Assembly (NCBI GenBank): GCA_937924445.1
Contig: CALDSX010000124.1
Coordinates: 1 to 32,460 of the forward strand
DNA length: 32,460 nucleotides
Direction: 5' to 3'
DNA from: an uncultured Chthoniobacterales bacterium
GTDB lineage: Bacteria > Verrucomicrobiota > Verrucomicrobiia > Chthoniobacterales > CALDSX01
Part shown: positions 1 through 31,218 of the stretch, piece after piece
Position numbering within the stretch: the stretch's first letter is position 1
Layout of the letters: each line of letters starts with the position of its first letter
Program-made: the position numbers and the translations under genes
The notes under the pieces: generated by a model
Seen by the model: only the letters and a program-made list of their open reading frames with translations
Told to the model about the DNA's origin: nothing
Databases searched by the model: none

Positions 1-227
1 CCCCCCTGGTGAATTCAGCAAAAAACGAACTTTTTTTCTGTTGCGTTCGGGGGGGGGTGTAATCTATTCTTCGGTTACTGATGGTCCCATGGTGGGACTA
101 CCTGAGCAGTTACGTTTGGTCGGTGTTTTCGGACCCATGAGAGGATGGGAGTTTTTGTCAGGAAAGATGTATCTTGGCAGCGCTGACTTCAGTGGAGGTA
201 TTTCTGCTGCTGTTGAGTCTGTGACAG

Positions 228-267
228 CAAAACGGGCCGATCCGCTTTCGCAAACCGGCCCGTTTTG
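228..267 (-). terminator. Hairpin downstream of the RRM gene, candidate terminator
   Basis: An 11-bp perfect inverted repeat (caaaacgggcc / ggcccgttttg) flanks an 18-nt loop and starts about 30 nt beyond the stop codon of the minus-strand RRM gene. The stem carries a T run on its 3' side when read from either strand, so it could end transcription in both directions. No other gene is visible between position 1 and 295. That stretch otherwise holds homopolymer runs (C at 1-6, G near 50-57) and no convincing ORF. Confidence 0.5.
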
Positions 268-847: not shown

Positions 848-1573
848 GTGAAAAGAGAAAGTTACGAGAACGTCGAGCAGAAACTTTTGCAGAAACTCGA
901 CGTTGTAGGGAGCAAGGGGTTAACGAAATCGAAATTGCTTCCTAAGAAGACAAGCCCAAAAAGAGCGGCGGCTGAAGAGGCTCTTGGTGCATTACTCTCC
1001 CGCCGACTCATTGGAAATCTTGGCACGTCCAGATCACCACGCTATGTCGTTATTTCACACTACAAGCCGCTTGAGTTGGCCTGCTCGGTCGTTGAGGCCA
1101 AGGCGATCCCGGAGCGACTTATACTTTACACCATCACCGAGCTCGGCAAAGGCTGCACGGGAGCGGTAAAGGAAGCAATTCCGGAGGCTGTTGCCTTGTT
1201 GGTGAAAGAAAAAAAACTGCTTGCCCTAAAACGAGGGCGTTCTCTTTACTATCTGTTCACGGCACCGCTGCGAGAACAGCTTTTAAAGAACGAAGCAGAG
1301 GGCGATGAACCGCTGCCTTTGGACGAGGGCGCCGTGCGTAGAGCGTATCGGCAACTTGTCGGGGAATCGGGGCTGCCTTACGTTGCTATTTCACGCCTGC
1401 AAGAGCGGGCAGGGGTGGCGCTCGATCCATTGAAAATCTGGCTCAAAGAGCAGAGCCGTATCGGAAGCGTTGTTCCAAGTCGTGGCGACTGGTCGCTTTC
1501 AGACACGTGCCAGAGAGAGGCGGCTATTGAAATGCGTGGCGAACCGCATTTGCTTGTGCAACTTCTCGATTAA
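848..1573 (+). CDS. Putative tandem winged-helix protein, first gene of the three-gene cassette
   Basis: A 241-residue soluble protein that I do not recognise by name. It starts at GTG with no obvious Shine-Dalgarno sequence; no better in-frame start is nearby. By eye it divides into three similar units of about 75 residues, each with helices followed by a beta-wing-like ending. The first ends LLSRRLIGNLGTSRSPRYVV, the second LLVKEKKLLALKRGRSLYYLF, and the third runs from about residue 165 (LPYVAISRLQERAGVALDPL) to RIGSVVPSRGDWSLS. This pattern is typical of winged helix-turn-helix folds and suggests DNA binding or a kleisin-like adaptor. No enzyme motif is visible. The ATPase gene follows about 40 bp downstream on the same strand, so a shared transcript is likely. 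A structure prediction would settle the fold. Confidence 0.72.
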   Translation: MKRESYENVEQKLLQKLDVVGSKGLTKSKLLPKKTSPKRAAAEEALGALLSRRLIGNLGTSRSPRYVVISHYKPLELACSVVEAKAIPERLILYTITELGKGCTGAVKEAIPEAVALLVKEKKLLALKRGRSLYYLFTAPLREQLLKNEAEGDEPLPLDEGAVRRAYRQLVGESGLPYVAISRLQERAGVALDPLKIWLKEQSRIGSVVPSRGDWSLSDTCQREAAIEMRGEPHLLVQLLD

Positions 1574-1613
1574 TTAGCAGCTTTTTAGTCATAAAATCTC
1601 AGTAAATGAAAGC

Positions 1614-3701
1614 TTGGACGTGAACCCTTTCGCAAACAACATTGTCATGGAGCCTCGGGAAGCGGAGCCGTCTGTGCTCGGTTTGAACGAGCACGCTTTG
1701 GAGGCTCTTATTGCCGAGTTTCTGAGGCTAGAGAAGCAACCTCCCCCCCGTGTGGTCCGTCTGAATTCCCCTTTACTTGCCCAACTTGTTATCTCGCCCG
1801 AACCAGGTTACGGCAAGTCACACCTGATCGGTCGTTTTTTTCAACGGCTCAATGGCAGGGCGTTGCGGGTGTATCTCCGCCCGTTTCAGGATGCTTCATC
1901 AGCTTGGCGAACGATTCTGAGAGGAGTACTCGTTGAACTCGCGCAGACGGAAAAAGGTTCTTTGGAGAAATCTCTCGAAGGAGTGAGTCAGCTCCGTGCT
2001 TTGGCGTTGCACATTTTTGCGAATTTGACGGCAATGATGGTTGAATCAGGCCAGCTTGTGTCATCTGATGCGGTGTGCCAAGGCGCAGCACTCCGCGCCG
2101 ATCCAGTGGGATCTTTTGGAGTCGGGGCAAAGGACCAAATCATAGCGGACTGGATGCGGGAGAATTTTTTTTCTACGACCCTGCTTTCGCTTTTTGAAGA
2201 GCAACTTACCCTAAGCAATCTCGACCTCAACGCCCCGCCTGGTGCCTGGCTGAAAATTCTTTTCGCAATCGCATTCCAAAACTCTAAACTATTGAATATC
2301 TGCTGCGATTGGATTAAAGGCAACGAATTGGAGGAGGGCGACAAACGTGCCCTTTGCTTGACACGCAACGAAAGTTCCGAGCCTGAAGGCACTTGGGCTG
2401 GTAGAAACGAAATCGCGCGCCAGCGGTTGTTCGATCTCTTGAAGCTTTCTGGATTTTACAGGCCGATGGTGCTCTGTTTCGACCAGACCGAGCTTCTCAC
2501 AGGTCGAGTTGAAGAATGTGCAGAGTTTGGTCGCGTGATCGAGGATCTTGTTTGCAATGGGCGCAACGTGCTCATTGTTGTAACAGCCAACCAACAGTCT
2601 TGGGAGTCGATAAAGCTCTCAATGGAAGTCGCGCACCATGACCGCTTCTGCCAGCCTATTTGTCTAGAGGGAATTGATCTCAAACAGTCCCAAGAACTTA
2701 TTCGTCTTCGCTGCGAGAGTTACAACATCGCACCGGATGGCTGGCTAGATTTTATGTCGAACGGCTGGCTGAAATCCTTTTTTTCAGAGGCGCCACGGGC
2801 CGGTGTCCGGGCTCTGCTTCGCGTGTGTGAACAGCGCTGGTCTGAGCGCTCCAAAGCCAAAACGAGCGATAAGGCGATTGTCAACAAGTTGCTTCCACAG
2901 CGTTTCTCCAATTCACTTTCGCAGCCGCAAATCGGGGACTTTTTCAGTAGATCCCGCAAGGACGTCTCCTTGCGCCCTGGTGATTTGGATTTCGATGCTG
3001 ATATCCTGCGGTGGTTTGTTAGCCCGCTCTGCTTGGGGGACACGATTCTGCCGTGGCAAGTAAGCGGGCCTGAGAGTTTCGGCTCGAGTCGTCAGTTCGC
3101 GGCTCTGTGGATGCACGACAAAACTCTGCTGCTGTTTGGCGTCGAGGATTCAAACAACGCTTTACATTGGCGGGGACGCCTTCGCGAAAACAAACGAAAG
3201 CGGGAGTCCTCAGCTGCGAAAGGCTTTACCTTCAAGGTCACCTACCTCCGAACACCTGAACAGCGGCCGATTCCTGGTGCCAGCTGGAGTGTCATCGGAC
3301 AGGAAATTCGAGCTGAAGAGGCGTGGTTTCAAATCCGAACATTAGCCTTTGAGGAGTGGTTGGAGATCGTGGCGGCATTCGATGTTTGGGTCAAGAGCAA
3401 AGAGGGCGATCTCCCGTTCTCAACAGAAATCACCCTATCTTATGTCCGGGAGAAACTTGCTCCAATCTGGCGCGGCTTTATTGCATGGACAGGTTCTATC
3501 TCTCAGCCGCCGCAGGGTCTTCAAACAGAGATCCGCCGTGTGCTTTGCGAGCGACCGTTTCTCAGCTTAACGCAACTTGTTGCCAGCCTCCCAGGAAGAC
3601 CAGAGCCAACTTCAGTGCTCGATGTTTGTGAAAAAATGTCTGAAATCGCCGTTTTTAGATCCCCCACGCAAACTGTTTTGCAATGGAAAGCAGAAACATA
3701 A
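1614..3701 (+). CDS. Large AAA+/ORC-like P-loop ATPase, second gene of the cassette
   Basis: A 695-residue ATPase. With the TTG start at 1614, Walker A is PEPGYGKSH at about 62-70 (K68, S69), Walker B is MVLCFDQTELL with D290-Q291, and a sensor-1-like N326 lies in VVTANQQSW. This order fits ORC/STAND-like AAA+ proteins that load or control DNA machines. The C-terminal half (about 420-695) matches no family I know; it contains a Trp-rich, beta-looking section around WQVSGPESFGSSRQFAALW and ends in a possible small helical domain. The start is uncertain: GTG at 1620 would give MNPFANN and ATG at 1647 is also in frame. The end overlaps the nuclease-translocase gene by 19 nt, which implies translational coupling. 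The likely role is an energy-dependent partner of that protein; this is inferred from context. Confidence 0.85.
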   Translation: MDVNPFANNIVMEPREAEPSVLGLNEHALEALIAEFLRLEKQPPPRVVRLNSPLLAQLVISPEPGYGKSHLIGRFFQRLNGRALRVYLRPFQDASSAWRTILRGVLVELAQTEKGSLEKSLEGVSQLRALALHIFANLTAMMVESGQLVSSDAVCQGAALRADPVGSFGVGAKDQIIADWMRENFFSTTLLSLFEEQLTLSNLDLNAPPGAWLKILFAIAFQNSKLLNICCDWIKGNELEEGDKRALCLTRNESSEPEGTWAGRNEIARQRLFDLLKLSGFYRPMVLCFDQTELLTGRVEECAEFGRVIEDLVCNGRNVLIVVTANQQSWESIKLSMEVAHHDRFCQPICLEGIDLKQSQELIRLRCESYNIAPDGWLDFMSNGWLKSFFSEAPRAGVRALLRVCEQRWSERSKAKTSDKAIVNKLLPQRFSNSLSQPQIGDFFSRSRKDVSLRPGDLDFDADILRWFVSPLCLGDTILPWQVSGPESFGSSRQFAALWMHDKTLLLFGVEDSNNALHWRGRLRENKRKRESSAAKGFTFKVTYLRTPEQRPIPGASWSVIGQEIRAEEAWFQIRTLAFEEWLEIVAAFDVWVKSKEGDLPFSTEITLSYVREKLAPIWRGFIAWTGSISQPPQGLQTEIRRVLCERPFLSLTQLVASLPGRPEPTSVLDVCEKMSEIAVFRSPTQTVLQWKAET

Positions 3702-5530
3702 CTGTTACAGAACTTGTCCGCGCATGTCTCGATGAACATTGTAAGCGGGCTTTAAAATCGGGGAGAAAACACGTCGACAAACCACTCATTTCAGCTGGCC
3801 AATATCCTGTAGGGGGACAGTATTTTCATTTGCTCGTGGCCAAATTTCTCTCGTGGCTGGTTTCCGAACCAGCGAGTGCGACACTGAGGGAGGGCGCGGC
3901 GCTTTGGCGGGAGTGTTACAAACGATTTGCGTCAGATAAGCTGGAGGAACTCTGTAAATCGGATAGGATTGATACCGCGTTGAATCTCTCTAATGCCCTT
4001 GAGGCTTTTTGCCAACGAATCGCAGCCCTGCGCCATGCAGCTGAGTTCGAGGCTGATTGGAACGATGTTTTTTTGGCTCAAGAATATCCGTTACAGGATG
4101 TGCCGTTTCGGTTTGGGCAAAATGTAATTTTCCTCTCGGGCGTGATGGATGCCATCCGTATCAACCCGTCCAAAGGAATTGAAGTTGCCGATTACAAACT
4201 TTCCCGGGGTGCCAACGTGCAGGAGGATTTGCTGCAGATCGCCATTTACGCTCGGATGTTAAGAGAGCGGAATCCGGGTATTGTTTTCCACGCTGTTTTG
4301 GAATATTACAGCCCCGCGTTTGAGGCTCTTGAAATCCTGCCCGAAGAACTCGGGAACCTTTTCAGTCAGTTGGTTGAACCTGTGTTGCGCGAGCTTGCGA
4401 TACTCACCCCACCGCCCAATGTTCATGAAGCCGAGGCAAAGAATTACGGCGGGTCGGAAGAATTTTCAGAGCCCGATCTCAGCGAGGCTATTGCGGCTTG
4501 TTTTCGTTCCTTCAAGCTCGACGTGACCCCATCTGGCCTTGTGAAGGGACCCCAAATCTTCCGATATATCCTCCGCCCATCTTTCGGTGTGAAAGTGGTC
4601 TCCCTCGCAAACCGGGCCAAAGATTTGCAGGTTGCACTGAGTTTGCCTGATGTGCCGCGCATCGAACCTAGCAGCAATGGAGTGACCATCGACATCCCGC
4701 GGAGAAAGCCGGAAACCGTTCATTGGGGTGATGTGATCGCTCGCTGTCCCGCCGACAAGTTACGCTTTCCTATCGGAGTGGCAGTGGACGGCAGTGTCGT
4801 TTCTGCCGACCTCAGCGACCCCTCATCCTGCCATGCTTTGGTTGGGGGCACCTCCGGCAGTGGTAAGAGTGAATGGCTCAAGTCGCTGGTGGCAAGTCTG
4901 ATAGCCCGTTCGGATGCTTGCGAGGTGAAGATCGCTCTTGTGGATCCCAAGTTGATCACTTTCAAACCGATCGAGCATTCCTCACACCTTCTTCGTCCAT
5001 TGTTGACCGAAGTGAGAGAAACACTAGACTTCCTTAAGGAGGCTCTAAATGAGATGGAACGACGATATTCAATCTTGGCCTCCCGACACGCGTCAAATCT
5101 CGCCGAGCTTCGCGCCGCACGACAAGATGACATTCCTTTTTGGGTGATAATTTTCGATGAATTTGCCGATCTGATTCTTTCCGGAGCCGACGAGAAAAAG
5201 GAGTTTGAGCGCATGGTGTCGCGCATCGCAGGCAAAGGTCGTGCTGCTGGGATTCATCTCGTCCTTGCCACCCAGCGGCCAGACAGCAAAGTTGTCACTG
5301 GTCTCATAAAAGCGAATCTGCCGCTGAAAATCTGTCTTCGAGTCATTAGCGGAGCCAACTCGCAAATCGTGCTCGACGAGCCTGGCGCTGAACGCCTCCT
5401 TGGCCGGGGCGACCTTCTCTATGATGTCGGCCGGGGCATTCATCGTGCCCAGGGAGCATTTATTTCAACGCATGAACTGGTGAGCTTGGCCGTTGGGCGC
5501 ACTGACAAACCGAAGACCCCAAAGCATTAA
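3683..5530 (+). CDS. RecB-type PD-(D/E)XK nuclease fused to FtsK/SpoIIIE-like DNA translocase
   Basis: A 615-residue two-part enzyme. Residues about 40-215 carry all the landmarks of the RecB/Cas4 nuclease family in order: GGQYFH (H49), GVMD (D156), VADYK (D170, K172) and the QhxxY motif QIAIY (Q185, Y189). Residues about 285-350 resemble the FtsK beta domain (FGVKVVSLANRAKDLQVALSL, RRKPETVHWGDV). The motor follows: Walker A GGTSGSGKS (388-396), Walker B VIIFDEFADL (D492, E493), LVLATQRP, and the SpoIIIE-like IKANLPLKICLRVISG and LLGRGDLLY. There are no transmembrane segments and no C-terminal gamma winged helix, so it is not the cell-division FtsK. It should pump double-stranded DNA and cut it. 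It overlaps the ATPase gene and ends the cassette. HerA-NurA pairs join similar activities in separate proteins; here they are one chain. Confidence 0.92.
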   Translation: MESRNITVTELVRACLDEHCKRALKSGRKHVDKPLISAGQYPVGGQYFHLLVAKFLSWLVSEPASATLREGAALWRECYKRFASDKLEELCKSDRIDTALNLSNALEAFCQRIAALRHAAEFEADWNDVFLAQEYPLQDVPFRFGQNVIFLSGVMDAIRINPSKGIEVADYKLSRGANVQEDLLQIAIYARMLRERNPGIVFHAVLEYYSPAFEALEILPEELGNLFSQLVEPVLRELAILTPPPNVHEAEAKNYGGSEEFSEPDLSEAIAACFRSFKLDVTPSGLVKGPQIFRYILRPSFGVKVVSLANRAKDLQVALSLPDVPRIEPSSNGVTIDIPRRKPETVHWGDVIARCPADKLRFPIGVAVDGSVVSADLSDPSSCHALVGGTSGSGKSEWLKSLVASLIARSDACEVKIALVDPKLITFKPIEHSSHLLRPLLTEVRETLDFLKEALNEMERRYSILASRHASNLAELRAARQDDIPFWVIIFDEFADLILSGADEKKEFERMVSRIAGKGRAAGIHLVLATQRPDSKVVTGLIKANLPLKICLRVISGANSQIVLDEPGAERLLGRGDLLYDVGRGIHRAQGAFISTHELVSLAVGRTDKPKTPKH

Positions 5531-5626: not shown

Positions 5627-6646
5627 ATGAGTCATTCAATCAAAGCTCTTGCAGCCTCCGCGCCTGGCTCATCTCTCTCTCTTTTTGAATATGAGCCAGG
5701 CCCGCTACGCCCCGAACAGGTCGAAATCAAAGTCAGCCACTGCGGCATCTGTCATTCCGACCTTTCGGTCATCCAAAACGATTGGGGTTTCAGCAGCTAT
5801 CCGCTTGTGCCTGGCCATGAGATTATTGGGACGGTTGTGGCAGCAGGTGCAGCCGTCAAGCGCGTTAAAGTTGGCGATCGCGTGGGTGTCGGCTGGTTCT
5901 CGGGGAGTTGCCTTTCCTGCCCGCAATGCCTCGCCGGCCACCATAACCTCTGCTCTGCTGCCGAGCAGACCATAGTAGGTCGCCACGGGGGCTTCGCCGA
6001 TCGCGTGCGTGCCAACTGGGAGTGGGCAACTCCTTTACCCAAAACGCTTGATCCATCCAAATCCGGTCCTTTGTTTTGCGGCGGTATCACCGTCTTCACT
6101 CCTCTCATTGCGTACAACGTCTGCCCCACAAACCGCGTTGGCGTCGTTGGAATTGGGGGGCTCGGTCATATGGCGCTCCAATTTTTTCACGCATGGGGTT
6201 GCGAGGTTGTGGGGCTGACTTCGACACCCGCAAAGAAAGAAGAAGCACTTTCGCTCGGGGCACACAAGGCCGTCGTAGTGCAGGACACGGCCGAGCTTGC
6301 GCCCCTTACTGGGTCACTTGACTTTTTGCTTGTCACATCAAACGTCACGCTGGACTTGAGCACCCTGCTCGGGCTGCTATCACCTAGAGGCCGTTTGCAT
6401 CTTGTCGGAGCCGTTCTCGAGCCGATGGCCATTCACGCATTTTCACTGATCACAGGTCAAAAATCGGTCTCCGGCTCTCCGCTCGGCAGCCCCGCGCTCG
6501 TGGGGGAAATGCTTGACTTTTGCGCCCGGCACAAAATTATGCCAGTCACAGAAATCTTTCCCATGACCCGTGCCAACGATGCCTTAGAACATCTCCGTAC
6601 TGGTAAAGCACGTTATCGTGTCGTGCTTGAAAACGATCTTAACTAA
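5627..6646 (+). CDS. Zinc-dependent alcohol dehydrogenase, CAD/YahK-like
   Basis: A 339-residue medium-chain dehydrogenase that should interconvert alcohols and aldehydes with NAD(P)(H). Catalytic zinc ligands fit C39 in CGICHSD and H64-E65 in GHE, with a third Cys in LFCGG. Structural zinc ligands are C95, C98, C101 and C109 in CLSCPQCLAGHHNLC. The Rossmann motif is VGIGGLGH near 170. Length and motifs match the cinnamyl-alcohol-dehydrogenase-like branch (E. coli YahK, yeast Adh6-like), which is usually NADPH-dependent and broad in aldehyde choice; the substrate here cannot be told. The gene starts 96 bp after the nuclease-translocase gene and lies 10 nt before the deoxyhypusine-synthase-like gene, so it probably shares a transcript with the latter. 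Confidence 0.95.
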   Translation: MSHSIKALAASAPGSSLSLFEYEPGPLRPEQVEIKVSHCGICHSDLSVIQNDWGFSSYPLVPGHEIIGTVVAAGAAVKRVKVGDRVGVGWFSGSCLSCPQCLAGHHNLCSAAEQTIVGRHGGFADRVRANWEWATPLPKTLDPSKSGPLFCGGITVFTPLIAYNVCPTNRVGVVGIGGLGHMALQFFHAWGCEVVGLTSTPAKKEEALSLGAHKAVVVQDTAELAPLTGSLDFLLVTSNVTLDLSTLLGLLSPRGRLHLVGAVLEPMAIHAFSLITGQKSVSGSPLGSPALVGEMLDFCARHKIMPVTEIFPMTRANDALEHLRTGKARYRVVLENDLN

Positions 6647-6656
6647 ACCCGTCGAT

Positions 6657-7631
6657 ATGACCTCACCTGTCAAAGAGTTTATCCGCCATCATTACCGTCA
6701 CTTCAACGCCGCCGCATTAAAGGATGCCGCCGAGGCATACGTCACCCACGTCGAAGGTGGTGGTAAAATGCTCCTCACCCTTGCGGGGGCGATGAGCACC
6801 GCCGAACTTGGCGTTTCGCTCGCCGAGATGATACGCCAAGATAAAGTGCACGCCATCTGCTGCACCGGAGCAAATCTCGAGGAAGATGTCTTTAATCTTG
6901 TCGCCCATGAATTTTACGAGCGTGTCCCGAATTATCGCGACCTTACACCGGCCGACGAGAAGGCTTTGCTGGATCGTCACATGAATCGTGTGACCGACAC
7001 ATGTATTCCTGAAATGGAAGCAATGCGCCGAATTGAAGCTGCGGTTCTCGAAGAATGGGTTGCTGCAGATAAGGCTGGGGAGCGCTATTTCCCGCATGAA
7101 TTCATGTTCAAAATTCTTCGTAGTGGTAAGCTCGCTAAATCCTATCAAATTGACCCCAAAGACTCTTGGCTGCTTGCGGCGATGGAGAAAAACCTCCCGA
7201 TGTTCGTTCCTGGCTGGGAAGACGCTACCCTTGGCAACATGTATGCCGGGCACTGTATCTCGGGCGATGTAAAGAATGTTCACACCGTGCGCACCGGCAT
7301 CGAATACATGATTGAGCTGGCCGATTTTTACACGCGAACTTCCGCAGAAACGCCCATCGGATTCTTCCAGATCGGTGGCGGGATCGCGGGTGATTTCCCC
7401 ATCTGTGTCGTGCCGATGCTTCATCAGGATCTCGGGCGTGAGAATGTTCCCCTCTGGGCATACTTCTGCCAAATTAGCGACTCGACCACCAGCTACGGCT
7501 CTTACTCTGGCGCAGTGCCCAACGAGAAAATAACCTGGGGCAAGCTCGGCGTTGAAACACCCAAGTTTGTCATAGAAAGCGATGCATCCATTGTCGCACC
7601 GCTGATTTTTGCGTGGGTGCTCGGTTGGTGA
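6657..7631 (+). CDS. Deoxyhypusine-synthase-like protein
   Basis: A 324-residue member of the deoxyhypusine synthase/homospermidine synthase family, which transfers the aminobutyl group of spermidine using NAD. The core signatures are LAGAMSTAELG, CCTGANLEEDVFN near the N-terminus, IGGGIAGDFPI, and ITWGKLG near the end. K296 in WGK aligns with the Lys that forms the enzyme-imine intermediate (K329 in human DHS). I start it at ATG 6657 because the 13 extra residues in the ORF track overlap the upstream dehydrogenase and look unlike the family. Bacteria lack eIF5A, the classic substrate, so homospermidine synthesis or modification of another protein is more likely. The 10-nt gap to the alcohol dehydrogenase indicates co-expression. 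Confidence 0.9.
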   Translation: MTSPVKEFIRHHYRHFNAAALKDAAEAYVTHVEGGGKMLLTLAGAMSTAELGVSLAEMIRQDKVHAICCTGANLEEDVFNLVAHEFYERVPNYRDLTPADEKALLDRHMNRVTDTCIPEMEAMRRIEAAVLEEWVAADKAGERYFPHEFMFKILRSGKLAKSYQIDPKDSWLLAAMEKNLPMFVPGWEDATLGNMYAGHCISGDVKNVHTVRTGIEYMIELADFYTRTSAETPIGFFQIGGGIAGDFPICVVPMLHQDLGRENVPLWAYFCQISDSTTSYGSYSGAVPNEKITWGKLGVETPKFVIESDASIVAPLIFAWVLGW

Positions 7632-9043: not shown

Positions 9044-10342
9044 ATGACTGAGCAAAGAAACAATTCAAGATCAGCAACTCTTTTTCACCAGGCGCTTGCT
9101 GCGATCCCCGGTGGGGTCAACTCACCGGTGCGGGCTTTTCGAGCGGTGGGCGGACAACCGTTTTTTGTAGAATCAGCAAGTGGCGCACGCATCCACACTG
9201 TTGATGGCCTCTCGCTGATCGACTATGTTTGCACTTGGGGACCGGCGATTCTCGGGCATGCACCCCGAGCGGTTTTGGAAGCGATCCGCGAAACTGTGGG
9301 GCATGGATTGAGTTTTGGTATTCCAAATCCTCGCGAGGTGGATATGGCCGAGAGCATAAAGCGCTTTGTCCCTGCTGTGCAAAAGGTTCGCATGGTCAAT
9401 AGCGGCACCGAGGCAACGATGTCATGTGTTCGTCTGGCACGCGGGTTTACGAACCGGGATTTGATTGTGAAGTTTGCGGGTTGCTATCACGGCCATGTGG
9501 ACAGTCTGCTCGTTAAAGCTGGTAGTGGTGCGCTCACAAATGGTGAGCCGGACAGTGCTGGCGTGCCATGCGCACTAGCGGCGCTTACAATCACACTCCC
9601 TTTTAATGATAAGGAGGCGATTCGGGAGCTGTTCTCTCGGCGAGGGCGTGAAATTGCGGCGATCATTCTCGAGCCAATTCCTGCAAACGCGGGGCTTTAT
9701 CTTCCCGAGCCTGGCTATCTCGAGTTGTTGCGTCATATGTGCGATGCGCATGGGGCCTTGCTTATTTTTGATGAGGTAATGACCGGGTTTAGGCTTGGAC
9801 CTGGTGGGGCGCAAGAGTTGTTTGGTATTTCTCCTGATCTATCGGCATTTGGCAAAGTCATTGGTGGGGGGTTGCCAGTTGGAGCCTTTGGAGGGAGGGC
9901 TGATGTGATGGATTATCTCTCCCCCTCCGGGCCGGTTTATCAGGCGGGGACGCTATCGGGCAATCCGCTTGCTCTAGCGGCCGGCCTAACACAGCTTCGC
10001 GAACTCGAACATGGTGGTGGCTGGGCGCGGCTGGAGCAAATCGGGCTGGCTTTTGAGCAATTGATACGGGAGGCTCTCGTACAAACACGCACGTATGCGA
10101 CATTTCACCGAATTGGTTCGATGTTTTGTCTCTATTTTTGTGAGGGACCTGTTCGAAATCTTGACGATGCGATGCGGTCCGATCGGGCGCGATTCGCTCG
10201 GTTTTTTCACGAGTGCTTGAAGAGAGGGGTTTACTTCGCGCCGTCGCAGTTTGAAGCCGGATTTCTCTCTCTTGCACATGGAGAGGACGAGTTGGAGGCC
10301 ACAGCACGTGTTGTCCGGGAGGCGCTTGCAGTTTCAGGATAA
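9044..10342 (+). CDS. hemL: Glutamate-1-semialdehyde 2,1-aminomutase
   Basis: A 432-residue PLP enzyme that converts glutamate-1-semialdehyde into 5-aminolevulinate in the C5 route to haem and other tetrapyrroles. It begins with the family hallmark IPGGVNSPVRAF, contains VNSGTEATMSCVRLAR and CYHGHVD for cofactor phosphate binding, IFDEVMTGFR (D243), and the Schiff-base Lys in SAFGKVIGGGLPVG (K271). Length matches HemL from other bacteria (about 425-430). The ATG at 9044 leaves little room for another start. It stands alone downstream of the decayed region, and no haem-pathway neighbour is visible. No regulatory site was recognised upstream. Confidence 0.98.
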   Translation: MTEQRNNSRSATLFHQALAAIPGGVNSPVRAFRAVGGQPFFVESASGARIHTVDGLSLIDYVCTWGPAILGHAPRAVLEAIRETVGHGLSFGIPNPREVDMAESIKRFVPAVQKVRMVNSGTEATMSCVRLARGFTNRDLIVKFAGCYHGHVDSLLVKAGSGALTNGEPDSAGVPCALAALTITLPFNDKEAIRELFSRRGREIAAIILEPIPANAGLYLPEPGYLELLRHMCDAHGALLIFDEVMTGFRLGPGGAQELFGISPDLSAFGKVIGGGLPVGAFGGRADVMDYLSPSGPVYQAGTLSGNPLALAAGLTQLRELEHGGGWARLEQIGLAFEQLIREALVQTRTYATFHRIGSMFCLYFCEGPVRNLDDAMRSDRARFARFFHECLKRGVYFAPSQFEAGFLSLAHGEDELEATARVVREALAVSG

Positions 10343-10714
10343 GCCAATGACGCAGCTCTGCCTCATCCGATCGATGCAGTCGTTGTGTGGCGTTAGGGGC
10401 TATGCGAAGAAAAACAGATACAAAAACCCACGCGTCCGGTTCGATAAAGGCTGTGAGGGTTGTGGTTATCGGCCTCATGCCTTACATCCTGTGAATGCTC
10501 TTTTTGCTTTAATTATCTACTTTTTGCGAACCGATAAAAAAATCTATGTCTCAAATTTGTTAAATTTGAGAACGAAATGGGTGAGAAGAAAAAACTTTCG
10601 GCAGTCTACGCTGGTGAAGTCGATAGAAGCTTTTGAAAAGCACCCCTGTGACGTTTATTGGCTGACATAAGAGAGGGGATTTTGCAGTCGATGGAAAATG
10701 CAGGGGTAGGGGGA
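10343..10714. other. Intergenic region between hemL and tRNA-Pro
   Basis: This 372-bp stretch holds no supported gene. The plus-strand ORF at 10251-10670 begins inside hemL in another frame and looks like a shadow. The one clear structure is the AT-rich inverted repeat at 10549-10571. Confidence 0.5.
10549..10571. repeat. Perfect AT-rich inverted repeat
   Basis: The two arms tctcaaattt and aaatttgaga form a perfect 10-bp inverted repeat around a 3-nt loop. The stem is too AT-rich for a standard intrinsic terminator and has no T tract after it. It could be an operator-like site or a weak terminator between hemL and the convergent tRNA-Pro gene. Confidence 0.45.
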
Positions 10715-10788
10715 TCGGGCTGGCGGGATTTGAACCCGCGGCCTCTGCGTCCCGAACGCAGCGCTCTACCAAGCTGAGCCACAGCCCG
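10715..10788 (-). tRNA. tRNA-Pro (anticodon CGG)
   Basis: The minus strand folds as a full cloverleaf: acceptor CGGGCTG/CAGCCCG, D arm GCTC...GAGC, anticodon stem CTGCG/CGCAG around loop TTCGGGA (anticodon CGG), and T arm GCGGG TTCAAAT CCCGC. The discriminator base is A and the CCA end is not encoded. It decodes CCG proline codons. Confidence 0.97.
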
Positions 10789-10939
10789 CTCGAAGAAGCT
10801 TAGCCTCCATTAACGGCGAAGCAAGTAATAGTTTTTGTTGCCTTGGTCTTTGGACACCTGATAATTGAAGAGCGAACAATGCAAAATCTATTCGGCGTGC
10901 GAGTTAATTTTGTATTTGGCAGCTTTAATTTGGATCTAA

Positions 10940-11377
10940 ATGGATACGATTCCTGAGCTAACAATTGATGTTCAAGTAATGTTTTTTGACACCGACTGCG
11001 CTGGGGTGGTTCATAACATTGCTTACCTACGGCATATCGAAACCGCGCGCACTCATCTTGCTGAGATATTAGGTTGGCGGCTGGTCGAGATGGCGAACAC
11101 GGGTCTTTATCCGGTGGTGGTTCGGACCGAGATTGACTACAAACGTCCCGCAAGATTGGGTGATGTGATGCGTGTTCGAGGGTTTCTTGAAGAAGTCGAG
11201 CGCTCGCGTTTTTGGTGCGGGTTTGAAATAAGCCGAGCAACAGATAATCGATTGCTCGTCACATGTCGCCAATCGCTTGCTTTGGTGCAAATGCCGGAAG
11301 GAAGGGCTGTCCGGCTTCCACCAGAATGGCGTGAACGGTGGAGCAAAAAAGTACGGGTTCGTGAAAGCACCACCTAA
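10940..11377 (+). CDS. Acyl-CoA thioesterase, YbgC/4-hydroxybenzoyl-CoA thioesterase family
   Basis: A 145-residue hotdog-fold protein. The family signature is at the N-terminus, MFFDTDCAGVVHNIAYLRHIETAR, with D17 in the position of the catalytic Asp. The strand pattern YPVVVRTEIDYKRPARLGDVMRV is typical of the fold. These enzymes cleave acyl-CoA or acyl-ACP thioesters in the cytoplasm. In gammaproteobacteria YbgC sits with tol-pal, but no tol genes are visible here, so the link to envelope function cannot be made from context. It lies between tRNA-Pro and a convergent thioredoxin-fold gene, apparently as a single-gene unit. Confidence 0.93.
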   Translation: MDTIPELTIDVQVMFFDTDCAGVVHNIAYLRHIETARTHLAEILGWRLVEMANTGLYPVVVRTEIDYKRPARLGDVMRVRGFLEEVERSRFWCGFEISRATDNRLLVTCRQSLALVQMPEGRAVRLPPEWRERWSKKVRVRESTT

Positions 11378-11507
11378 AGCTTCATAAGAGGCGATAAAAG
11401 AAACGATAAACAGCGGACTGCGTTTTTGCCGGTGCTAAGTTGATTTGGCGCCTCGTCAGAGCTTGTCAGCAGGAATTTTTATAAGCTTCTTTTTTACTTA
11501 TGAGATG

Positions 11508-11996
11508 TTAAGGTTTGCTGGTTCCTTTGGAGAGAATGTTGTTGATCTCCGAGATAAATTTCTGCGGACTGGCGTCGGGGGAGGCACCAAGGCGCCCAAG
11601 CTCTTTTTCTCCGGTGGAGTCAAGAACAACGTAAGTTGGGTATCCTTTGATCCCAAATTCTTGCTGTAAAGAGTTATTCCGGGCAACGTATTCCGATGGC
11701 ACAATACTTTTGTTCTGTGGAAAATCGATTGTAACGAGGATAAGCTTTTTCGCAGCGTACTCTTTCCATTCCGTTTGGGCAAACACCTTTTTGTCCATGA
11801 GCTTGCACCATCCGCACCAATCGGAGCCGGTGAAATTGATGAGTATTGGTAAATCCTTTTCCTTGGCCAATTTGGTTGCAGCGGCTAAGTCCATTGTCCA
11901 TTTGCCAGGCTCAGCGCCTTCGGTTGCTACTTCAGCACGAACGTTGGTGAGAGCAAGAATAGAGATCGTAAGAAAGGAGAAAATGTGAGTTTTCAT
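11508..11996 (-). CDS. Secreted thioredoxin-fold protein
   Basis: With the ATG at 11996 this is a 162-residue protein beginning with a signal peptide (MKTHIFSFLTISILALTNVRAEV, probable cleavage after VRA). The longer ORF in the track places 29 unlikely residues before that signal and was not used. The active site is WCGWCK (C61, C64), with the cis-Pro loop at GYPTYVVLD. The order fits the DUF255/thioredoxin_7-like group of periplasmic reductases, which often act on misoxidised or cytochrome-maturation substrates; the target here is unknown. It is convergent with the thioesterase and divergent from gyrA, with 353 bp to the latter. Confidence 0.93.
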   Translation of the reverse strand: MKTHIFSFLTISILALTNVRAEVATEGAEPGKWTMDLAAATKLAKEKDLPILINFTGSDWCGWCKLMDKKVFAQTEWKEYAAKKLILVTIDFPQNKSIVPSEYVARNNSLQQEFGIKGYPTYVVLDSTGEKELGRLGASPDASPQKFISEINNILSKGTSKP

Positions 11997-12349
11997 ATTG
12001 TTGTGTGACGGCACACCAAGGATGGCATAATGTCGGCCGAGGCCAACGCTGGAAGAAGTCAACCAGGATGAGACTATTGCCACTGATAGTCGCCACTGTT
12101 AGGTGCGGTTGCAAAAATGTCAAACGCAAGATTTAAAGAAACACCCAGTGAATCAGGCATCGGAAAAGAAGAAGCCAGTCATGGAGGACTTTTAAAATTT
12201 CTCCCGGTTGCCTACTAAATTGATTGAAGCCGGGTGGTAAGAACAAATATTCATTCTTCCCGAATTTTCTTTGCTCTTGTAGTTTGGCTCGCCCATATTG
12301 AAATTTCGCCAATAATAAGCCTCTCTCCAAAAGCGAAACATTTTAAAAC
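11997..12349. other. Divergent intergenic region upstream of gyrA
   Basis: This 353-bp region should contain promoters for gyrA and the thioredoxin-fold gene. A small GC hairpin (cccgg...ccggg, around 12205-12236) is the only structure noted. No clear -35/-10 pair or other gene was found; the minus-strand ORFs here lack recognisable protein content. Confidence 0.4.
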
Positions 12350-14929
12350 GTGTACACCCAAAACGAAAAAGTTGACCCAATAAACGTCGCCGAAGAGATG
12401 TCGAGGAGTTTCCTCGATTATTCCATGTCGGTCATCATTTCGAGGGCACTGCCCGACGCTCGTGATGGTCTAAAGCCTTCACAGAGGCGCATTCTTTTTG
12501 CCATGCGAGATCTTGGCGTGCAGCCAAACCGTAAGCATCTGAAGTGCGCTAAGATCGTAGGTGAAACCATGGGCAACTACCATCCCCATGGCGACCAGGC
12601 AATTTATCCGACTCTCGTGCACATGGCGCAACCATGGTCTATGCGAGACACGTTAGTTGATGGGCAGGGTAATTTTGGTTCTGTGGAAGGAGATCCCCCT
12701 GCGTCGATGCGATATACAGAGGCGCGGTTGACACCTCTTGGCTCTGTGATCATGGATGACATGGACAAAGAGACCGTGGATTTCGTGCCGAACTATGACG
12801 AGACACGGCTTGAGCCATCTGTTTTTCCGGCCGCTTTCCCGAATCTCCTCGTCAACGGGGGAACAGGTATTGCGGTTGGAATGGCTACCAATATACCTCC
12901 ACATAATCTTGGTGAGTTGGTGGACGGGTTGTGCGCGATGGTCGATGATCCCGGGATTGGCGTAAACGAACTGATGCGCTTTGTTAAAGGCCCAGACTTT
13001 CCGACCGGCTGCCAGATCACTGGAACGGCTGGGATTCGTCAGTATTTTGAGACGGGACGTGGCAGCGTGAAGGTGAGGGGTTGCGCAGGGGTTGAAGAAA
13101 TAAAAGGCGGGCGAGAACAGATTGTCATCACGCAAATTCCTTACGGTGTTAATAGAGCAGAACTTGTTTCTCGAATTGCTGAACTGGTGAATGATAAAAC
13201 CCTCACTGACATCTCTGCAATTCGCGATGAATCAGACGAAAACACCCGCGTAGTGATCGAACTCAAACGCGATGCCGTCGCAAAAGTCGTTATCAACAAT
13301 CTATTCAAGCAGACTTCGTTGGCCACTTCCTTCTCAGCCAACATGCTTGCGATTGTGGGTGGCAGGCCAAAGTTGCTTTCACTCAAAGACGCACTCCAAT
13401 GCTTTCTTGACCACAGACGGGATGTTGTTTTGAGACGCACACGGTTTTTGTTGCGCAAAGCTGAGGAGCGTGCGGAGACTCTGGAGGGTTATCTGATCGC
13501 ACTAGAGAATCTCGATGAATTCATAAGGATCATCAGAGATTCAAACAACCGCGACCAAGCTCGCGAGCGTCTCTTGAAATTTAATTTTTCACAGCGGGAG
13601 ATCGAGGATCTTGGGATTTTGATACGCTCTGAAGCGCGATTGGTGAATGGACGCTACGGATTTAGCGAGGCACAGGCCGATGCAGTGCTCGATTTGCGCC
13701 TTTACCAACTTACTGGCTTAGAGCGTGAGAAGGTAACCGGTGAATATAAAGCGCTTGTTTCACAGATTAACGATCTCCGTGATATTCTCGAACGCGAAGA
13801 GCGGGTGCGTTCCATCATCAAAGAGGAACTTCAAGCTGTAAGAGCCAAGTATGCCACTCCCCGCCGAACCGAGATTGTCCCTGAGGAGGGGGAAATGGCG
13901 CTCGAAGATCTTATTGTCAACGAAGGTTGTGTTATCACGATCACCCACAAGGGTTATATCAAACGCACCGCTGTAAGTGCCTACCGCGCTCAGCGACGTG
14001 GTGGCGTGGGAGTGCGTGGTATGTTGACCCGCGACGCTACCGGCGAGGATCAGGAGGGGGACTTTGTGGAGCACATCTACACTGCAAGCACTCACGATTA
14101 TCTAATGTTTTTTACTAGGCAGGGGCGATGCTACGTCGAGCGTGTCCACAGCATTAACGAAGGGGAGCGGGGATCAAAGGGACGATCAATCGCGAATCTG
14201 CTCGAACTCAAAAACGACGAAAAGATTGCGGCGATCATTCGTGTTCAATCAAAGGTGGTCGGCAACAAAGACTCGACTTGGGATTCTAACCTCCACGTGC
14301 TATTTGCCACCAGTTCCGGCATCGTCAAGAAAACCAATCTTTCTGAATTTTCCAACGTCCGTAAAGGTGGAATTATTGCCATGCAAATTGAGGAAGGTGA
14401 TGAGCTCATTGAAGCTATGTTGACCAGTGGGCAGGATGAGGCGGTGTTGATAACCCACCAGGGAATGAGTCTGCGGTTTCACGAAGACCAAATTCGAGAT
14501 CAGGGCCGTAACACTGTTGGCGTATGGGGTATCCGTCCTGAGAAAGAAGATTATGTGGTAGCCCTGGCTATTGTCCAACCTGATGCCATGCTTTTAGTAG
14601 CCGGCGAAAATGGGATTGGCAAAAGAACCCCTTTTGATGAGTATCGGCTCCAAGCCCGGGGCGGCAAAGGTATCATAACAATGAAAACCGGCGACAAGAC
14701 CGGTGCGGTGGTTGGCGCTTTGACTATTCGAGAAAATGACGAAATGATGTTAATCAGCAATAAGGGCCAAATGACACGAATCAAAGTGAATAACATTCGT
14801 GTGACTGGACGCAACGCCCAAGGGGTGAAACTTATGGATCTTCGCCCGGGAGAGCGACTTGTAGATATTGCTCCAGTTGTTGTAGATACCGAAACAGACA
14901 TAGACACAAGTTCGAACACGACTGCATAA
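12350..14929 (+). CDS. gyrA: DNA gyrase subunit A
   Basis: An 859-residue GyrA, the DNA-cleaving and rejoining subunit of gyrase, which introduces negative supercoils with GyrB. The N-terminal winged helix and tower domains are intact and the catalytic Tyr is Y122 in SMRYTEARL. The C-terminal wrapping domain carries a GyrA box, QRRGGVG, which separates it from ParC. In the quinolone-determining region (HPHGDQAIYPTLVHMAQPW) residues 83 and 87 are Gln and Pro, where E. coli has Ser and Asp; numbering coincides with E. coli. Translation starts at GTG 12350, with no clear Shine-Dalgarno sequence. gyrB is not adjacent. The downstream gene is convergent. Confidence 0.98.
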   Translation: MYTQNEKVDPINVAEEMSRSFLDYSMSVIISRALPDARDGLKPSQRRILFAMRDLGVQPNRKHLKCAKIVGETMGNYHPHGDQAIYPTLVHMAQPWSMRDTLVDGQGNFGSVEGDPPASMRYTEARLTPLGSVIMDDMDKETVDFVPNYDETRLEPSVFPAAFPNLLVNGGTGIAVGMATNIPPHNLGELVDGLCAMVDDPGIGVNELMRFVKGPDFPTGCQITGTAGIRQYFETGRGSVKVRGCAGVEEIKGGREQIVITQIPYGVNRAELVSRIAELVNDKTLTDISAIRDESDENTRVVIELKRDAVAKVVINNLFKQTSLATSFSANMLAIVGGRPKLLSLKDALQCFLDHRRDVVLRRTRFLLRKAEERAETLEGYLIALENLDEFIRIIRDSNNRDQARERLLKFNFSQREIEDLGILIRSEARLVNGRYGFSEAQADAVLDLRLYQLTGLEREKVTGEYKALVSQINDLRDILEREERVRSIIKEELQAVRAKYATPRRTEIVPEEGEMALEDLIVNEGCVITITHKGYIKRTAVSAYRAQRRGGVGVRGMLTRDATGEDQEGDFVEHIYTASTHDYLMFFTRQGRCYVERVHSINEGERGSKGRSIANLLELKNDEKIAAIIRVQSKVVGNKDSTWDSNLHVLFATSSGIVKKTNLSEFSNVRKGGIIAMQIEEGDELIEAMLTSGQDEAVLITHQGMSLRFHEDQIRDQGRNTVGVWGIRPEKEDYVVALAIVQPDAMLLVAGENGIGKRTPFDEYRLQARGGKGIITMKTGDKTGAVVGALTIRENDEMMLISNKGQMTRIKVNNIRVTGRNAQGVKLMDLRPGERLVDIAPVVVDTETDIDTSSNTTA

Positions 14930-28965: not shown

Positions 28966-31218
28966 ATGCCGCAAATTCAGCTTCCGATATTCCCCTCTAG
29001 CAGCACGCCAATAACTAACGAATTGGCCTTTGAGGAAAGGGAAGGAATAGTGTGGTATTTCAACGGGCATCTTCCGGTTTTCAGCCATCCGGTGGAAGAC
29101 ATAGGATCCTTTCGATTTTTCATCAGCCAGCTTATCGCCAACGGGAATGCCTCGCAGAGCGAGATTGCGCGAGCATTCGGTGTGCCGCTGGTCAGCGTGA
29201 AGCGGGCTTGTAAAAAACTGCGGGAGCAAGGGGCTGCGGGATTTTTCCAGACACCGAAACCTCAGCAAGGACACAAGCTGACAGGGCCACGCATCGAAGA
29301 AGTTCAAGGGATGCTTGATGCGGGAATGGAAGTTCCCGCCATTGGGGCGCAACTCGGGGTGTTGCCCAACACGATCCACAAGGCCATCCGGGCTGGAGGG
29401 CTCAAAAAAAAAAGCGTAGGCAGGCCGATTCCGTCGGCGGTGGATGAGGCAAGCAGCCAAGGTGAGCGCAGCATCGCCGACGGAGAGGCTGCGATGGGAG
29501 TGGGTACGACCCGTTCGATGGAACGGGTTGCCGCAGCTCTTGGAGCCTTGGAACAAGCCGAAACACGTTTTGAGCGAGCCGATGATGTTCCCAACGGTGG
29601 TGTGCTCTGTGCCTTGGCCGCCCTGCTCGGATTGGGACTCTTGAGTTACGCACAAAGTCACTTCAGTGCGCCCAAGGGCTTCTATCCGATGGAGTCGATT
29701 TTCCTGTTGCTGGCCTACCTGGCGTTGGGCCGGGTGCCGAGTTTGGAGCAGTTGCGTTACCGATCGCCCGGAGAATGGGGCAAGCTCCTGGGCTTGGATC
29801 GCATCCCCGAAGTCAAGACGTTGCGCGATAAAATCGGAGTTCTTGCCGATGACCCGGAGCGCACGGCTCGATGGAGCGGGGATCTGGCCAAAGAGTGGAT
29901 GGCCCAGGACGTGGAGGCCGCCGGGGTACTTCTCATTGATGGGCATGTGCGGGTTTATCACGGAGAAGCCACCAAGTTGCCCCGGCGCTACATCAGTCGC
30001 GAGAGGCTTTGCCTGCGGGGCACCACCGACTACTGGGTCAACGCGCTGGATGGAGCCCCCTTCTTCTGCGTGAGCAAAGCAGTGGATGCGGGCCTGCAGA
30101 AAACTCTTGAAGAAGAGATCGTGCCTCGCCTGCTGGCCGACATCCCCGGACAACCCACTCCCGAAGAACTGGCCGCCGAGCCGCTACGCCACTGCTTCAC
30201 GCTCATCTTCGACCGCGAAGGCTACTCACCGGATCTCTTCAAGCGACTCAAAACCCAGCGCATCGCCATCCTCACCTATCACAAACATCCTGGCCCCGAT
30301 TGGGCACCCGGCGAGTTCGCCCCGCAAATGCTCACCCATCCCAACGGGGAAACCAGCACGCTCCAATTGGCCGAACGGGGCACCCGACTGAGCAACGGAC
30401 TTTGGGTGCGCGAGATCCGCTCCTTGAGTTCAAGCGGCCATCAAACCGCCATCTTGAGCACCGATTATTGTGGCCAATTGGGGCGTTCTGCCGCCGCAAT
30501 GTTCGCCAGATGGAATCAGGAAAACTTCTTCAAATACATGCGTGAACACTACGGCTTGGATCGTCTTATCGAGTATGGAGTTAGCCCGCTTCTTGAGACC
30601 ACTCGCCTGGTCAATCCCGACTGGCGGAGCCTCGAGAGCCAAGTCCGGCGCACCGCTGCAGAACTCAGCCGAGCCCGTGCCACCTTTGCCGCCCATACCC
30701 TCGGAGCCCAGGAAAGCGAGCCCGAGACCGCCGCCCGTCACGAGGAAAAGAAAGGAGCGGCTTTGAACCTCATCCAGAACAAGCAAAGCCAGCTCGACTC
30801 CCTCAAAAACCGACGCAAAGCCACCCCCAAACATGTCGAACTCAAAGACTTCGCACCCGAGCAACGTGTTGCCCAACTGCGCGGCGGCAGAAAGCACTTC
30901 ATCGACACTATCAAACTCATCGCCTACCGGGCCGAAACCGCCCTCGTCCAACTCGCCCGCGAAACCCTACGCCGCCACGACGATGCCCGTTCTTTCCTGC
31001 GCGGGCTCTTTGCTTCCAGCATCAACCTGCGCCCCGATCCCGCACGCAAAGAACTGTGCGTCGAAATCCATGGCCAGACCAACCCCATCCATGACGCCAC
31101 TCTTGAGGTCATGTGCACCGAACTCAATGCCACGGAAGTCTACTATCCAGGCACAGATCTCCGCGTCTTTTACCGCCCAATCAGGTCATCCGTTTTCCCC
31201 AGAGGTCAGGATGTCTGA
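28966..31218 (+). CDS. DDE-type transposase of the IS
   Basis: A 750-residue transposase. An N-terminal helix-turn-helix is visible (SQSEIARAFGVPLVSVKRACKKL), with a second HTH-like segment at MEVPAIGAQLGVLPNTIHKAIR. The likely catalytic acids are D325 in LLIDGHVRVYHG, D416 in LIFDREGYSP and E519 in WNQENFFKYMREHYGLD, in the order and context of IS4/IS1634-like DDE enzymes. A charged helical stretch with EEKKGAALNLIQNKQSQLDSLKNRR follows near residue 610. It is much longer than IS4 transposases and resembles large putative transposases found in verrucomicrobial and planctomycete genomes. The frame is intact. Confidence 0.85.
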   Translation: MPQIQLPIFPSSSTPITNELAFEEREGIVWYFNGHLPVFSHPVEDIGSFRFFISQLIANGNASQSEIARAFGVPLVSVKRACKKLREQGAAGFFQTPKPQQGHKLTGPRIEEVQGMLDAGMEVPAIGAQLGVLPNTIHKAIRAGGLKKKSVGRPIPSAVDEASSQGERSIADGEAAMGVGTTRSMERVAAALGALEQAETRFERADDVPNGGVLCALAALLGLGLLSYAQSHFSAPKGFYPMESIFLLLAYLALGRVPSLEQLRYRSPGEWGKLLGLDRIPEVKTLRDKIGVLADDPERTARWSGDLAKEWMAQDVEAAGVLLIDGHVRVYHGEATKLPRRYISRERLCLRGTTDYWVNALDGAPFFCVSKAVDAGLQKTLEEEIVPRLLADIPGQPTPEELAAEPLRHCFTLIFDREGYSPDLFKRLKTQRIAILTYHKHPGPDWAPGEFAPQMLTHPNGETSTLQLAERGTRLSNGLWVREIRSLSSSGHQTAILSTDYCGQLGRSAAAMFARWNQENFFKYMREHYGLDRLIEYGVSPLLETTRLVNPDWRSLESQVRRTAAELSRARATFAAHTLGAQESEPETAARHEEKKGAALNLIQNKQSQLDSLKNRRKATPKHVELKDFAPEQRVAQLRGGRKHFIDTIKLIAYRAETALVQLARETLRRHDDARSFLRGLFASSINLRPDPARKELCVEIHGQTNPIHDATLEVMCTELNATEVYYPGTDLRVFYRPIRSSVFPRGQDV

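Follow-up and report, generated by a model that had tools for sequence, protein, structure and literature searches.

Whether a compact three-gene cassette from an uncultured Chthoniobacterales bacterium serves to clear invading DNA, and to which kind of system it belongs if it does, is the question raised by the locus described here. The window, by which we mean the whole 32,460-nt stretch of DNA that was analysed, is the entire contig C124 of the source genome G000 (a 2.58-Mb draft, 94.9% complete), and the cassette occupies positions 848-5530 with three genes, all on the plus strand. As a sequence-only reading of this DNA had claimed, a 40-nt gap separates genes 1 and 2 and a 19-nt overlap joins genes 2 and 3, and all three ORFs were confirmed. 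Judging from gene content, we favour, with a probability of about 0.6, a stand-alone restriction module against phages or plasmids, of the Orc/Cdc6-coupled "HerA/FtsK capture" kind predicted by Rakesh, Aravind and Krishnan (NAR 2024; PMC10853773). L-numbers below denote homologous loci and G-numbers genomes (L032, for example, lies in G000 and L095 in G119). The features of the cassette, all on the plus strand, are the following.

848..1573, plus strand: gene 1, ORF of 241 aa with a GTG start; predicted multi-winged-helix, DNA-binding-like protein
Gene 1, about aa 6-68, 74-137 and 160-239, plus strand: winged helix-turn-helix (wHTH) units of the AlphaFold2 model
1614..3701, plus strand: gene 2, ORF of 695 aa with a TTG start; P-loop ATPase with a predicted C-terminal winged helix
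1803..1823, plus strand: ATPase Walker A, PGYGKSH, aa 64-70; motif invariant across the trio family
2475..2492, plus strand: ATPase Walker B, CFDQTE, aa 288-293; motif invariant across the trio family
3513..3686, plus strand: putative C-terminal winged helix of the ATPase, about aa 634-691; helix-strand-helix-helix-strand-strand in the AlphaFold2 model, pLDDT about 60-87
3683..5530, plus strand: gene 3, ORF of 615 aa with an ATG start; RecB/AddB/Cas4-type nuclease fused to FtsK-alpha and an FtsK motor
4136..4249, plus strand: PDDEXK active-site stretch with conserved motifs GVMD156, D170-Y-K172 and Q185xxxY189
4469..4699, plus strand: FtsK alpha domain, aa 263-339; PF17854, E=2.3e-9
4763..5281, plus strand: FtsK/SpoIIIE motor, aa 361-533; PF01580, E=2.5e-34; PDB FtsK, 2e-57
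4844-4873, plus strand: FtsK Walker A motif, GGTSGSGKSE
5144-5173, plus strand: FtsK Walker B motif, VIIFDEFADL

Profile searches of PADLOC, Pfam and NCBIfam, which name only the FtsK and nuclease domains of the cassette, returned no sequence-family match for gene 1, and the tandem winged-helix protein proposed for this gene finds its support in structure prediction instead. The AlphaFold2 model (mean pLDDT 82.5, from an alignment of 3 sequences) contains three helix-helix-helix-strand-strand units, and its best PDB matches in Foldseek are multi-wHTH proteins, namely an RNA polymerase III subunit, SelB, ScpB and, lower down, SspB, with a single match at E<=0.001. Homologues of gene 1 lie 5' of the ATPase in L017, L033, L036, L037, L038 and L095-L100, and the protein diverges fast (23-44% identity). 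As modelled, gene 1 would correspond to the separate gene with 2-4 wHTH present in a subset of the Orc/Cdc6-coupled capture systems.

Gene 2 had been read as an AAA+/ORC-like ATPase. Its P-loop character stands, with Walker A and B intact and a VTAN sensor-like motif kept in the trio family, and the signals for the ORC-like part are weak: AAA_16 and AAA_22 were matched sub-threshold at E of about 0.003, human CDC6 was matched by the gene 2 family profile at E=0.23, one archaeal Orc-like ATPase gave no alignment beyond Walker A, and the PADLOC, Pfam and NCBIfam libraries held no family name for the protein. The ATPase core of the AlphaFold2 model is too poor to be classified by AlphaFold2 or Foldseek because the alignment for folding had three sequences only, and at about aa 440-600 there is an alpha/beta region of mixed confidence for which Foldseek gave no fold match. 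The C-terminal end of the model looks like the wHTH that closes the ATPase of the capture class, and Foldseek matches include short wHTH repressor structures, all at E>0.1. Gene 2 is probably an Orc/Cdc6-like AAA+ protein.

The RecB nuclease-FtsK fusion claimed for gene 3 was borne out, its FtsK part by strong matches to both Pfam families listed above. The N-terminal ~260 residues are a RecB/AddB/Cas4-type PDDEXK nuclease, as seen from Cas4 models (E about 1e-3 to 1e-4), from PF12705 PDDEXK_1, which homologues match at E=3e-11 to 3e-14, and from the motifs common to gene 3 and its homologues, GxxFH(49), GxxD(156), DYK(170-172) and QxxxY(185-189), and we predict a REase of the active type. The family profile of this nuclease comes nearest to the AdnAB repair nucleases (7e-6), with 4ic1, which we take to be a Cas4 structure, at 0.02. 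HerA models match gene 3 weakly. In a tree of FtsK domains, the motors of the Verrucomicrobiota trios fall outside the branch that unites cellular FtsKs with those of Dnd and Ssp systems (support 99/97), and those of L093 and L105 fall inside it, beside the others. A housekeeping FtsK was rejected for gene 3, as the trio motors lie outside the cellular FtsK clade and carry a nuclease.

The trio arrangement is not due to chance, because homologous trios in the same order, sharing about 23-49% identity, occur in other genomes. Profiles recover the order winged-helix protein, ATPase and nuclease/motor in the window, L017, L033, L036 (the L018 locus), L037, L038 and L095, with the genes of L033 and L036 located by tblastn and profile searches, and this order is kept across several Verrucomicrobiota families. 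In L096, L097 and L098 a single ORF of about 1190-1250 aa, preceded by the wHTH gene, encodes ATPase, nuclease and FtsK together; a frame change divides the fused ORF of L099, and L100 lacks the nuclease through loss. These five loci belong to one family with small genomes (2.2-2.5 Mb), and the single polypeptide of some of its species is good evidence that the three domains would work together. An FRG-domain gene adjoins the L098 copy. The motor has been swapped in L037 and L038, where the nuclease is fused to a HerA/DUF87 domain with a long insert in place of the FtsK of most other genomes. The ordered unit is also found incomplete: L034 and L040 keep the wHTH and ATPase genes with no nuclease/motor gene nearby, and therefore the pair can exist alone, the ATPase of L035 is truncated with an in-frame stop and has no motor gene, that of L039 is broken, and L041 and L042 are fragments at contig edges.

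Genome searches covered samples of 57 genomes of the order and 388 of the phylum, the latter queried with the ATPase, as gene 3 mostly returned cellular FtsK. The ATPase was matched in nine of the 57 same-order genomes, G000 included and some copies being partial, and at E<1e-100 in only seven of the phylum sample, again with G000; more distant ATPases, with E-values of about 1e-59 at best, were found solitary. With a presence this patchy, the cassette is not a housekeeping locus.

A second ATPase-FtsK pair is carried by G000 itself (L032, G000:C1:82000-101900, positions 9601-14258, or C1 91.6-96.3 kb). No recognisable wHTH gene was found at this paralogue, whose ATPase and FtsK P-loops are intact and whose every nuclease motif is lost; it may be a regulator, a decoy or a decaying copy. 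An arginine decarboxylase gene lies 75 bp 3' of the pair, together with an EVE-domain gene, and a spermidine-synthase-domain gene lies upstream. Polyamine genes near the paralogue recall, perhaps by coincidence, the bacterial deoxyhypusine-synthase-family gene (PF01916) found just downstream of the window cassette at 6618-7631, where it overlaps a zinc alcohol dehydrogenase gene.

Next to the window cassette lie genes for an RRM protein and an alcohol dehydrogenase, along with the deoxyhypusine-synthase-like gene, and most of its closest relatives likewise sit amid ordinary metabolic genes. We saw no defence genes flanking the window cassette, no mobility gene adjoining it and no GC shift at its position. 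A Transposase_29 gene (PF21804) is found 23 kb away, at 28966-31218, and overlaps a 514-aa antisense ORF. A defence-gene neighbourhood, which had been put forward as a check, turned up for some divergent relatives only and for neither the window copy nor most of its closest relatives: in L094 a divergent ATPase relative that matches a DEDDh exonuclease model stands beside DNA methyltransferase, GIY-YIG and HEPN genes, and in L140 another stands beside TIR and macro-domain genes. At the sensitivity used, no ATPase relatives were detected in phages or viral contigs. Farther away, genes for a P-loop NTPase, for a protein with the order PDDEXK-FtsK-alpha-FtsK and for a hypothetical protein are carried by a conjugative plasmid of Pseudanabaena (L093); hhalign confirms the ATPase as a genuine relative (98.7%, E=1.8e-16), and the 266-aa neighbour has no detectable relation to gene 1. 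An archaeal plasmid, from Halobaculum (L141, 11484-19160), carries near a Druantia DruA gene the genes for a 507-aa P-loop protein that looks SspF-like by eye, for a nuclease-like-FtsK fusion and for hypothetical proteins; the set may represent an SspFGH-like or a capture system.

A pair formed by a SNF2 helicase and a SWIM zinc-finger protein adjoins the cassette at L033 (4116-7965) and L093 (3166-7303), and so spans two phyla, Verrucomicrobiota (with DUF3670) and Cyanobacteriota (with divergent SNF2/SWIM); in G012 it lies upstream of the trio. A general five-gene system was nevertheless rejected, as G000 has no DUF3670 protein, co-occurrence of SNF2 (DUF3670) with the trio is marginal (four of nine trio genomes among 57, hypergeometric P=0.04, a value that ignores relatedness), and the trio was seen at none of the nine further SNF2 loci, some of which lie on short contigs.

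If the cassette is a capture module, DNA would be bound by the multi-wHTH protein together with the wHTH at the end of the ATPase. The complex would be loaded or licensed by the Orc/Cdc6-like ATPase at some site or structure that is characteristic of an invader's DNA, and the FtsK motor would pump double-stranded DNA past the RecB/Cas4-type nuclease to which it is fused, there to be cut or degraded. That such a complex forms, that the steps follow this order and that self DNA is spared is what we infer. Self-marking by phosphorothioation is unlikely, since no match to DndC (TIGR03183) was found in the 94.9% complete G000, and self-protection would probably come about through recognition of an invader-specific state, or of replication or transfer intermediates, instead of through a phosphorothioate mark. 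In favour of the capture module we counted the domains with their intact motifs, the conserved gene order, the ATPase-nuclease-FtsK fusion, the patchiness, the plasmid relative, the defence-side divergent relatives, the motor swap and the core parts common to the published class; against it, the lack of defence genes flanking the window copy, the unproven Orc/Cdc6 core and inactive REase, the AlkB-like gene of L095, and the lack of an ATPase relative in phages or viral contigs at the sensitivity used.

The main rival, which we regard as unlikely, is a machine for DNA repair or recombination, in which FtsK and the RecB-type nuclease would process double-strand breaks or chromosome ends in the manner of HerA-NurA or AdnAB, and loading would fall to the ATPase and the wHTH protein. 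The proximity of the nuclease profile to AdnAB and the location of most copies away from known defence genes would fit such a machine, as would L095 (11490-12116, in G119), where a gene for an AlkB-like 2OG-Fe(II) oxygenase, possibly a fourth member of the operon, has a 4-nt overlap with the end of the gene for the nuclease-FtsK protein and could hint at a role in DNA repair. A patchy occurrence among related genomes, a fast-diverging wHTH protein and a relative carried on a plasmid speak against it, however, and motor exchange and loss of the nuclease would be unusual for a core repair complex. HerA-NurA and the HerA-linked antiphage pairs do share with the cassette a DNA translocase and a nuclease, but the motor here is an FtsK with FtsK-alpha, and its RecB-type nuclease is part of the same protein instead of a separate NurA. 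The copy on a conjugative plasmid would fit a partition or transfer module of a mobile element or plasmid, where FtsK would be the DNA pump and the nuclease a processing enzyme, and the ATPase-plus-wHTH design may indeed resemble replication or partition factors. Such a module is nonetheless quite improbable here, as no relaxase, integrase or replication gene adjoins the cassette at those chromosomal loci that were inspected, the window cassette shows no GC shift, and both the nuclease fusion and the chromosomal conservation over several families argue otherwise.

Membership in the phosphorothioate-linked restriction systems SspFGH and DndFGH would account for the match of the FtsK part to SspH C-termini (PADLOC, 6.3e-53) and for the likeness to SspFGH of SspABCD-SspFGH (PMC8092258), which is also a three-gene cassette with a Walker-A ATPase protein and a C-terminal FtsK-like motor. 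That match is a general one, however, which covers cellular FtsK as well, and it involves only the end of SspH models that, at 1561-1766 aa, are far longer than gene 3. The PADLOC models of SspF, SspG, DndF and DndG gave no match to genes 1 and 2 at E<=1, and in a direct gene comparison an SspF-like protein aligned only at Walker A and an SspG-like protein showed no similarity, so that SspF and SspG are non-homologous to genes 1 and 2 by these tests. DndFGH, which works alone in many genomes according to the main text of PMC10853773, shares with the cassette an ATPase, a protein with several wHTH (DndG) and, in DndH, a nuclease joined to HerA/FtsK; even so, no DndF, DndG or DndH model matched genes 1-3 at E<=1, and in gene 3 the RecB-type nuclease sits directly before FtsK-alpha. 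With no DndC match in the 94.9% complete G000 as well, membership in either system was rejected, and this explanation is largely refuted and very improbable.

As a capture module, the trio would be a compact three-gene version of a predicted class, with clear catalytic motifs and a setting that appears modification-independent, and it comes in natural variants, namely the fusion, the motor exchange and the dead-nuclease copy. It is a convenient unit with which to ask whether an FtsK pump and an Orc-like ATPase detect and destroy invading DNA, and it also suits the question of how self DNA escapes without a mark. A bolder and rather doubtful extension is that the Verrucomicrobiota trios form a distinct subtype, in which FtsK and HerA are exchanged behind one RecB/Cas4-type nuclease, the window and G000:C1 copies of G000 would work as a pair of an active and a nuclease-dead cassette, and some lineages (G012, the Pseudanabaena plasmid) have a SNF2-SWIM pair for a remodeller-assisted, modification-independent clearing of DNA.

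The set of genes had been taken for an unnamed one, which is true of PADLOC, Pfam and NCBIfam, and for a new defence or plasmid-clearance module, of which the domain calls and the defence-like pairing of translocase and nuclease have held. The trio is not a new kind, though, as its architecture is already in print as the Orc/Cdc6-coupled capture class (PMC10853773). As described in the main text of that paper, the class combines an Orc/Cdc6 ATPase with an inactive REase before its C-terminal wHTH, an active REase and a HerA/FtsK motor, one set of motors having FtsK-alpha and another lacking it and carrying a helical insert in HerA; a subset has the separate gene of 2-4 wHTH, the domains may lie in one or several polypeptides, and relatives carry fusions, to TIR domains or, for the motor, to exonuclease domains. 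Anti-invader activity was predicted there from gene neighbourhoods, and we found no experimental test of the class in the literature; a 2026 paper (PMC12839542) repeats the capture theme and adds BREX-related capture systems. The main text of PMC10853773 does not mention Verrucomicrobiota, RecB, Cas4, AddB or AlkB, although its supplements may list the family, and it gives the class a mobile gene neighbourhood, against which we observed a patchy distribution and one plasmid copy, and no mobility gene beside the window cassette. The Orc/Cdc6 core, the inactive REase and the mobile setting are unproven for the trio, which otherwise fits the class, as presented in that text, closely: the HerA with a long insert in L037 and L038 resembles the inserted-helix HerA set, L140 beside its TIR gene and L094 with its DEDDh exonuclease match recall the TIR and exonuclease fusions, and shared with the class are an ATPase with a predicted C-terminal wHTH, a REase, an FtsK-alpha motor and a multi-wHTH gene.
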